DNA of 64,000 nucleotides from Actinomycetales bacterium (GTDB lineage Bacteria; Actinomycetota; Actinomycetes; Actinomycetales; Microbacteriaceae): positions 1-64,000 of the forward strand of contig JAFKEN010000008.1 in NCBI GenBank assembly GCA_017308515.1, given 5' to 3'. Position 1 is the first letter of the stretch. Each line of letters starts with the position of its first letter. The position numbers and the translations under genes were made by a program. Shown here in pieces: positions 14,131 through 16,450 of this stretch. The notes below the pieces were generated by a model. The model ran no database searches, was not told the origin of the DNA, and saw only the letters and a program-made list of their open reading frames with translations.

Positions 14131-14183
14131 GTTATCAGCTCAGGACTTGTATCACTCCTGTTATCAGTTCTAGGCTGATGACA
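14131..14183 (+). promoter_or_regulatory. Promoter and operator of the satD-like gene
   Basis: TTGTAT (14147-14152) and TAGGCT (14171-14176), 18 bases apart, form a promoter whose -10 lies 6 bases before the ATG, so the message should be leaderless. An inverted repeat TGTTATCAG/CTGATGACA (14159-14167 and 14175-14183, 8 of 9 pairs, spacer 7) covers the -10 box and start. A further half-site GTTATCAG is at 14131-14138, 29 bases before the next copy. A repressor bound here would block RNA polymerase; the gene product itself, with its C-terminal helix-turn-helix, is the obvious candidate. Confidence 0.6.
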
Positions 14184-14797
14184 TGAGCGATGGGATCGCG
14201 ATCCTCGTCGACATCGTCGGCTCGCGCGGGCTCGCCGACCGGCAGGCCGCGCAGGGCCGGGTCGAGGCGGTCTTCGCGCGCATCCACGAGCTGCGCCCGT
14301 TCCGCGAACCCGCCCGTGCCACGACCGGCGACGAGCTGCAGGCGGTCTCGGGCGACCTGGCCCACGCCCTGTGGGCGAGCGGTCTGGCCCGGCTGCGGCT
14401 GCACGACGATCCGGGGGTGCGCCTCGGCCTCGGGGCGGGCGAGTTCGCGCGGGTCGACACCCGCGACGGCTCGGTGCCCGACGGCTCGGCCTGGTGGAAC
14501 GCGCGCGCGGCGATCGACCGCGCCCACGAACTCGGGCAGCGGCGCAGCACCGGCTTCGTGCGGTGTTGGTATGTCGGGCCGCATCCGGAGGGCACCACCT
14601 CGTACCTGCTGCTGCGCGACGACGCCGTGGCGCGCATGACGGACGAGGAGCGTACCCTCGCCGCGGGGCGCCTCGAGGGGCGCAGCCAGGAGCAGCTCGC
14701 GGAGGAGGCCGGGGTGACCCAGTCGGCGGTGTCGCAGCGCCTCGCGCGCTCCGGCGGTCGCGCGCTCGATCTGGCCGACCGGGAGTCGCGCGCGTGA
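14183..14797 (+). CDS. SatD-family protein with C-terminal HTH
   Basis: A 204-residue protein resembling the SatD family, whose biochemical role is not known. The N-terminus starts AILVDIVGSRGLADRQ, the D-x-V-x-S-R pattern of the family; the middle holds DELQAVSGD and WWNARAAIDRA. The last ~50 residues form a helix-turn-helix resembling sigma region 4 (EQLAEEAGVTQSAVSQRLAR). Its stop overlaps the start of a membrane protein (GTGA), the usual partner of this family. An inverted repeat covers its promoter, so autoregulation is likely. Part of the block inserted between cmk and der. Confidence 0.7.
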   Translation: MSDGIAILVDIVGSRGLADRQAAQGRVEAVFARIHELRPFREPARATTGDELQAVSGDLAHALWASGLARLRLHDDPGVRLGLGAGEFARVDTRDGSVPDGSAWWNARAAIDRAHELGQRRSTGFVRCWYVGPHPEGTTSYLLLRDDAVARMTDEERTLAAGRLEGRSQEQLAEEAGVTQSAVSQRLARSGGRALDLADRESRA

Positions 14798-15582
14798 TCG
14801 CGGCGCTTCTGCTCGTCGCCGTCGGCGCCGGCGACCTCGCCCGCGGCGCACGGTCGCTCGCCCTCGGGTGGGTGCTCGCCGCCGTCGCCTGGTCGGCGAC
14901 CCTCGCGCTCGGGCTTCTCGGCGGCGCGCCGCCGATCGCGGTGTCGCTCGCGGTGCTCGGCGGCGTCGCCTGGTCGATGGCGGCCGAGGGGCTGAGCGGA
15001 TCCCGCTCCACGCCGCTGCCCGTCGTCGCGCTGCTCGCGATCGCCGTCGTCGTCGCGCTCGCGGCGGACGGGGCGCTGCCCGCTCCGCCGCCGACCGTCC
15101 TCGGTGCCGAGGTCGCCCGCCTCGCGGGCGGGGCGACGCTCGCGCGGGTGCTGCTCGTGCTCGGCGCCGTGCTCGTGCTGCTGCGCACCGCGAATCTGAT
15201 CGTGCGCGCGACGCTCGTGCAGGCCGTCGACCGTCGCCTCGAGCCGGTGGCGGGCCGTCCCGCCGCCTCCGGGTGGCGGGTGCGCCTGGGCTCGCGGGAG
15301 ATCGGTGCCGTGGAGCCCGTGGTCGCCGCGAGCGCGCCGTCGCGGCTGCGCGGCGGGCGCATCATCGGCCCGCTCGAGCGGGGCTTCGTGCTCGCGCTCG
15401 CGCTGCTGGGCGCCTGGGCGGCGCTCGGCGCGCTCGTCGCCGCGAAGGGCATCGTGCGCTTCCCGGAGATCTCGCGCGACCGGCCCTCCGGGTCGAAGGC
15501 CGAGGAGTTCCTCATCGGCAGCCTCGCCAGCTGGGCGGTCGCCGGCGCGCTCGCGCTGCTGCTCGCGGTGCATCCCGCCTGA
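14794..15582 (+). CDS. Polytopic membrane protein, SatD partner
   Basis: A 262-residue integral membrane protein with about six hydrophobic segments (residues 1-25, 25-60, 70-85, 110-135, 200-225 and 240-260) and a hydrophilic loop at ~140-190 that contains VRLGSREIGAVEP. It is coupled to the SatD-like gene by a GTGA overlap. Family unknown by name; such proteins are regular neighbours of satD in actinobacteria. Probably functions with it at the membrane, but no transport or enzyme motif is recognised. Confidence 0.65.
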   Translation: MIAALLLVAVGAGDLARGARSLALGWVLAAVAWSATLALGLLGGAPPIAVSLAVLGGVAWSMAAEGLSGSRSTPLPVVALLAIAVVVALAADGALPAPPPTVLGAEVARLAGGATLARVLLVLGAVLVLLRTANLIVRATLVQAVDRRLEPVAGRPAASGWRVRLGSREIGAVEPVVAASAPSRLRGGRIIGPLERGFVLALALLGAWAALGALVAAKGIVRFPEISRDRPSGSKAEEFLIGSLASWAVAGALALLLAVHPA

Positions 15583-16396: not shown

Positions 16397-16399
16397 GAC

Positions 16400-16444
16400 G
16401 GCTACGGTAATTAGCCTTCATGGCTACTGTCAATAGCCTATGCT
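16400..16444 (+). promoter_or_regulatory. Tandem TetR-type operators between MBL and tetR genes
   Basis: Two 17-base palindromic sites, GGCTA-N7-TAGCC, at 16400-16416 and 16422-16438. The centres are exactly 22 bases apart, about two helical turns, so both would be bound on the same DNA face. TATGCT at 16439-16444 abuts the second site and lies 6 bases before the tetR ATG at 16451, suggesting a leaderless, autorepressed gene. The first site overlaps the region just upstream of the divergent MBL gene. Confidence 0.75.
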
Positions 16445-16450
16445 GGCCGC

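Follow-up and report, generated by a model that had tools for sequence, protein, structure and literature searches.

The window analysed here, a 64,000-nucleotide stretch of an Actinomycetales genome (family Microbacteriaceae, contig JAFKEN010000008.1), carries a two-gene unit on the forward strand, made up of a satD-like gene and an overlapping gene for a membrane protein. The unit is preceded by short half-sites in alternating orientation. The features are the following:

14131..14138, + strand: half-site D, GTTATCAG, its ATCAG core lying at -49 relative to the start codon; this position class is also found in orthologues
14146..14150, - strand: half-site C, degenerate (CTTGT for CTTAT), at -37; read against orthologue positions
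14160..14167, + strand: half-site B, GTTATCAG, with its ATCAG core at -20
14171..14176, + strand: putative -10 element, TAGGCT, located 12 bp upstream of the ATG
14175..14179, - strand: half-site A, CTGAT, at -8, overlapping the -10 element
14183..14797, + strand: satD, encoding a predicted cyclase-fold domain (about residues 1-150) and a C-terminal helix-turn-helix (HTH; about residues 154-190)
14794..15582, + strand: membrane protein gene with a GTG start, overlapping satD by 4 nt; in its product, the C-terminal region shows homology to the C-terminal half of DUF3307 proteins

The sequence-only reading had described an inverted repeat before a SatD-like gene, with a further copy of one arm 29 bases upstream, and both are present. 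TGTTATCAG at 14159-14167 is paired with CTGATGACA at 14175-14183. Within the 64 kb window, GTTATCAG has no copies other than those at 14131 and 14160, which lie 29 bp from each other (0.10 copies expected; two or more copies in 1 of 100 shuffles). The repeat had been placed over the -10 element and the start codon; the right arm does cover TAGGCT at 14171-14176, but it reaches only the first base of the ATG at 14183-14185. Three half-sites had been named rightly, while the fourth, the degenerate CTTGT at 14146-14150, had been missed. The complete array fits the positions seen in orthologues, with cores at -49, -37 (degenerate), -20, and -8, and its spacing is 29 instead of 28 bp because the -37 and -20 sites are separated by one base more than usual. 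The best repeat returned by a blind inverted-repeat scan of the window's upstream region is not the operator. Elsewhere in the window, an MBL-fold-like gene and a TetR-like gene divergent from it (names given by eye) are separated by a stretch, 16397-16450, with short repeats (e.g., ATTAGCC, GGCTA) that are possibly a TetR operator.

Matches to the window SatD are found in 47 of the 199 genomes of its family and in 80 of the 297 genomes of its order; among the latter, some weak matches come from a divergent branch or from long frames of no relation. A contig search with the window protein alone yielded no relatives, and an alignment-based search confirmed 467, the best 80 of which constitute the named loci (from Microbacteriaceae, Demequina, Nesterenkonia, Actinomyces, Aeromicrobium, and others). 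For promoter comparison, 133 upstream regions were reduced by similarity to 94 non-redundant ones, leaving out L116 (motif not detected by script), as well as L073 and L129 (no usable start). Start codons were set by rule, from the distance to the GDE motif and with ATG preferred, and those of L012, L023, and some others are uncertain.

This orthologue comparison, which had been proposed as one of the checks, finds the repeat again before satD relatives and confirms, at the level of sequence, that it belongs to a phased array larger than one inverted repeat. Half-sites of the form ATHAG/CTDAT precede the 94 satD genes in alternating orientation, from about -8 to -76. Counts of AT[ACT]AG and its reverse complement peak at -8/-9 (38), -20/-21 (58), and -36/-37 (56), with outer peaks at -48/-49 (34), -64/-65 (15), and -76/-77 (6), and do not exceed 3 at any position away from the peaks. 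Autocorrelation, which assumes no half-site, reveals a single strong periodicity at lag 28, with a z of 15.2 against mononucleotide shuffles (next best 4.6). In a dyad scan covering centres at least 15 bp from the start codon, the two strongest centres lie 25.5 and 39.5 bp before it, 14 bp apart, and a weaker one lies at 53.5. Perfect inverted repeats of the form 7-(6 to 8)-7 are present in 23 of the 94 regions, versus 1.2 expected from dinucleotide shuffles, and those with six or seven matches in 66, versus 19.8 expected. At least three phased half-sites occur in the 110 bp before satD at 34 of 79 loci, and runs of this kind outside both operon ends number 2 in 433,529 bases. At L079 and L089, a four-half-site phased array lies about 930-975 bp upstream of satD.

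The divergent SatD-like branch in Actinobacteria (L031, L179-L196) retains the GDE motif in 17 of 19 loci, and all 17 have the partner motif nearby, in a downstream frame with IG.LER...ERF..G[TS], like that of the partner. By eye, the L031 and L196 promoters of this branch bear TCAAG/CTTGA-type sites 28 bp apart, and the L191 array looks canonical. A plasmid-borne copy is found on the Arthrobacter plasmid pZXY21 (CP017422.1, L175), typed as conjugative, where satD, preceded by GCTTAT-type sites, and an overlapping second gene have transposase genes in their vicinity.

Genome-wide scans point to an array that appears dedicated to the satD locus. When the whole 2.85 Mb genome of the window was searched for GTTATCAG-N5-G-N-CTGAT-N-AC with up to three mismatches, the palindrome at 14160 was the sole place with two mismatches or fewer; the three-mismatch places were the upstream palindrome at 14131 and four others, and the control reading of the pattern gave no matches. 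A core pattern, CTTATAT-N7-ATATAAG with up to two mismatches, was then sought in 24 other genomes. One of these, G015, a 0.9 Mb genome in which satD was not matched, had 19 forward places versus 8 in the control and was dropped before the count. The pattern is matched in 18 of the 23 satD-bearing genomes, and it is on the location of its places, all 24 of them at most 1 kb from satD, that the apparent dedication of the array rests; at this tolerance, there is no match in G021, G080, G402, G401, and G296. With the pattern reversed as a control, G007 and G093 each had a single forward place. A wider regulon was considered and set aside, as none was seen in the window's own genome or in the 24 others.

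The array coincides with promoter elements. TANNNT is found at -12 or -13 in 87 of the 94 upstream regions, the window's TAGGCT among them, and four Shine-Dalgarno-like words sought in the 12 bases before the start codon are absent in all 94. A -10 element 12 bp before the start and the lack of these words suggest that the satD mRNA is leaderless. Half-site C covers the -35 region, where there is no consensus TTGACA.

Palindromes of another spelling precede haloarchaeal satD genes. Haloplanus and Halorientalis have four GTTCG-N10-CGAAC palindromes, at -127, -98, -51, and -22, that is, two pairs spaced by 29 bp with 47 bp between the pairs, and Natronosalvus has ACAACC-N6-GGTTGT at -65 and -36, again 29 bp apart. 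With 94.5% identity between their SatD proteins, Haloplanus and Halorientalis are treated as a single case, so that the independent archaeal examples number two. The gene downstream of the Natronosalvus satD carries a hypothetical annotation. The Fusobacterium satD has a DUF3307-like neighbour, and no clear array is visible by eye in its promoter.

Half-sites also occur at the other end of the operon. Around the partner stop codon, at least two phased half-sites are present in 16 of the 68 loci with a readable 3' end (three loci with short 3' ends being left out), and at least three in 11. These arrays are seen at L066, L069, L070, L072, L074, L075, L076, L084, L087, L094, and L102, and also at L006, with the stop codon inside a half-site at L069, L075, L076, L084, and L102; the window's operon has no 3' array. 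A role as the promoter of the next gene gives no general explanation, since that gene is on the same strand in 9 and on the opposite strand in 7 of the 16 cases, according to a crude codon-composition call. A 3' array might possibly serve for looping or as a transcription roadblock, and it was considered whether an operon flanked by arrays could be a mobile unit.

The protein itself is SatD-like, as had been proposed, matching PF16264 at 45.2 bits (cut-off 29), and all 32 aligned relatives match this family at E <= 1. A single-sequence AlphaFold model was set aside (pLDDT 47), and the model obtained from 78 sequences reaches a pLDDT of 96.3 and a pTM of 0.91. The best structural match of residues 1-151 is the class III cyclase 5mbg (Z 14.6, 140 residues, 2.7 A), followed by GTP cyclohydrolase III (2qv6, Z 13.4) and a GGDEF domain (3icl, Z 12.6), these Z scores being a re-ranking of Foldseek's own matches. 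Foldseek's first match is Rv1900c (1ybt), with an E-value of 2.1e-4 and modest TM scores of 0.42/0.50. Profile comparison by hhalign with 27 class III cyclase domains gives a probability of 90.1 and an E-value of 1.6e-6 over 114 columns. Residues 1-150 are thus predicted to adopt the class III cyclase fold.

Eleven positions are invariant in all 78 sequences (D10, S14, T47, D50, E51, Q53, D100, G101, W104, W105, and R108), and D10 and D50 align to the DI.G and GDA metal-site positions of class III cyclases. The register of the invariant W104, W105, and R108 against the transition-state Asn/Arg motif of cyclases is ambiguous. The purine-selecting lysine, expected four residues before the second aspartate, is absent in all 78 sequences, residue 46 being A in 42, P in 31, S in 3, G in 1, and I in 1; together with the modest TM scores and the 90% profile match, this makes catalysis by SatD doubtful. 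PF00211 is not among the 12 Pfam families matching the window SatD at E <= 1; for the other 31 relatives, the listing covers 25 of 35 families. In the model, SatD thus has a cyclase-like fold and metal site, and membership in the class III cyclases is not claimed. The only PF00211 domain found in the window's genome, L144 (G000:C4:219194-219697), has another residue at the expected second metal aspartate and may be inactive.

The C-terminal HTH that had been read from the sequence reappears as three helices in the model at residues 154-190. The nearest sequence match of this segment is sigma region 4 (E 0.0019), with weak matches to TrfB and others; Pfam HTH profiles match residues 160-189 below their curated cut-offs. 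The pairing with a membrane protein recurs as well: a partner with at least three hydrophobic segments follows satD at 70 of 79 loci, with the 4-nt overlap in 56 of these 70, and no partner gene is found by script at the remaining 9. When 41 partners were compared with Pfam at E <= 1, 17 families were matched, none by more than one partner, and PF11750 (DUF3307) is absent among them. The partners share a conserved C-terminal region (GGR.IGPLER ... AAKGI.RFPEI ... AEYFLVGS), which aligns with the C-terminal half of the Haloplanus DUF3307 protein over 114 columns (probability 98.7, E 2.3e-16). The Pfam DUF3307 profile covers residues 15-115 of the Haloplanus protein, and the homology to the partner lies outside that part. 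By this alignment, the partner appears related to DUF3307 proteins.

Half-site spelling and the recognition helix of SatD vary together. Of the 11 loci with a helix ending in VSK, 10 have more GTTAT/GGCAT-type than canonical sites, versus 3 of the 83 other loci; where a residue other than Gln stands two positions before A-V-S, CTTCA/CTTAC-type sites are at least as numerous as canonical ones in 9 of 10 loci, versus 4 of 84. The corresponding Fisher p values, 3e-10 and 6e-9, are to be read with half-site classes named after inspection of the sequences and with rows related by descent. On a palm-domain tree, the VSK and non-Gln traits change at least three and at least five times, respectively. 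The starred branches of this tree provide two (VSK) and three (non-Gln) independent contrasts, too few for p < 0.05, which go the same way in 1.8 and 2.8 cases on average and the other way in 0.0 for both traits. Read in reverse, with five contrasts for each trait, the helix goes with the half-site change in only 1.8 and 2.4 of them and does not differ in 3.2 and 2.6. At least seven changes are counted for each half-site type, which means that some occur without a change in these helix residues. Locally, the clearest example is L130 (VSQ, canonical sites), placed inside a supported group of VSK loci with GTTAT-type sites (L088, L104, L128, and L131). Taken together with the conserved array, its restriction to the satD locus, and the haloarchaeal palindromes, this association suggests that SatD very probably binds its own promoter array.

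These observations can be joined into one mechanism. SatD would be a self-regulating one-component transcription factor, whose C-terminal HTH binds half-sites lined up in alternating orientation, two in every 28-29 bp. The array, overlapping the -35 and -10 elements of satD's own putatively leaderless promoter, would allow it to repress the satD-membrane protein operon, probably with several SatD dimers side by side. The N-terminal palm domain, predicted to have the fold of class III nucleotidyl cyclases and GGDEF domains, would most likely bind a nucleotide and possibly make one, the nucleotide state then setting operator affinity or acting on the membrane partner. Comparison among relatives supports the array, its phasing, the locus restriction, the helix association, and the overlapping partner gene. 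The case for the array, its phasing, and its restriction to the satD locus is strong, and that for binding by SatD itself is good but indirect. Repression rather than activation, likely since the array would cover both -10 and -35, is inferred, as are cooperative dimers, a nucleotide as the bound molecule, and any signalling, in either direction, between SatD and the membrane protein. The model as a whole (self-regulation via the array, repression, and a nucleotide-binding cyclase-fold domain) is given a probability of about 0.77. The earlier suggestion that SatD proteins are transcription regulators with an own-promoter operator is, thus, supported by array conservation, locus restriction, and helix association, and the pairing with a membrane protein by the recurrent partner gene; the two may, as had also been suggested, form a membrane-sensor system. 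A tentative extension, considered less likely than not, is that nucleotide-sensing or nucleotide-making SatD molecules sit side by side on the 28-29-bp array and, in about one-sixth of the loci examined, also on a 3' array, which might loop or bracket the two-gene unit, and that the palindrome spacing has been kept from Actinobacteria to haloarchaea while the spelling changes with the helix.

Other explanations account for part of these data. The array could be bound by another regulator, the SatD HTH acting elsewhere or not at all; some satD promoters are without an array, canonical half-sites numbering one or none at 9 of the 73 loci with canonical helices. Nevertheless, half-site spelling tracks SatD's own recognition helix, with contrasts that agree, and a core pattern found near satD only, in 18 genomes, would be odd for an outside regulator, which makes this explanation improbable. 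The reading of the conserved sequence as nothing more than core promoter elements (-35 and -10) or some feature of the mRNA has in its favour the TANNNT at -12/-13 in 87 of the 94 regions and the location of the commonest half-sites in the promoter region. Archaea, nevertheless, use a promoter type different from the bacterial one, and other palindromes precede archaeal satD genes; with half-sites that alternate, extend to -76, and recur past the operon 3' end, a pure core promoter is highly implausible.

Self-regulation by SatD might also take the form of activation, or of both activation and repression depending on the ligand. The sites reach -76, where activators often bind, and site C lies over a -35 region without consensus TTGACA. 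Half-site A, however, overlaps the -10 element and adjoins the start codon, and binding there normally blocks polymerase, so that activation is considered unlikely. Finally, SatD and the membrane protein could work together in defence or as an effector pair, in the manner of Pycsar or Panoptes, with a SatD-made nucleotide acting on the membrane protein. A predicted cyclase fold beside an overlapping membrane gene and a scattered distribution (in the family, 47 of 199 genomes) would suit such a pair, but neither protein has a match in PADLOC-DB 2.0.0 (2023), 50,697 phage records gave no match, and the window protein finds two plasmid records only. SatD, moreover, has its own HTH and operator and lacks the purine-selecting lysine, and a defence role is rather improbable. 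The preferred reading remains a SatD that binds and represses its own promoter.

Should this reading hold, an orphan family gains a testable role, for which the predicted fold, the pair of invariant metal-site aspartates, an operator with natural specificity variants, and the overlapping membrane gene offer starting points, and a cyclase-fold protein that is itself a transcription factor would, if true, be of interest to the nucleotide-signalling field. SatD and DUF3307 proteins occur in both bacteria and archaea. In the open-licence literature, no molecular function was found for either, which is a weak absence; PF16264 was not found named, and a search combining SatD, cyclase, and bacteria returned only an unrelated review. 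The word SatD mostly has other meanings among the literature matches listed. A Fusobacterium SatD is called an acid-resistance protein, from the family name, in one paper.

Several known systems share features with the satD pair. Within the SatD family (PF16264), the Pfam match of the window protein ends at profile position 115 of 211, and the Haloplanus SatD aligns with the alignment of the window's group over 197 columns (hhalign probability 99.6), which carries the homology on through the C-terminal region. The SatD-DUF3307 gene pairs of Haloplanus and Halorientalis also overlap by 4 nt, although the window partner itself has no DUF3307 profile match. Panoptes (OptS/OptE) and Pycsar encode a nucleotide-signal enzyme beside a transmembrane protein, an arrangement that the satD pair resembles; SatD differs from them by its HTH, its own-promoter array, and the lack of a PADLOC match. 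Class III cyclases (the catalytic domains of bPAC, OaPAC, and Rv1900c) share the predicted fold and both metal-site aspartates, whereas SatD has an HTH fusion, no purine-selecting lysine, and, for the window protein, no PF00211 match. With GGDEF domains and GTP cyclohydrolase III, the palm superfamily is shared by structure, and SatD has the GDE word at D50. CdaR/PucR-type regulators combine a GGDEF-like domain with an HTH and offer, like SatD, an example of a palm-like sensor fused to a DNA-binding domain.
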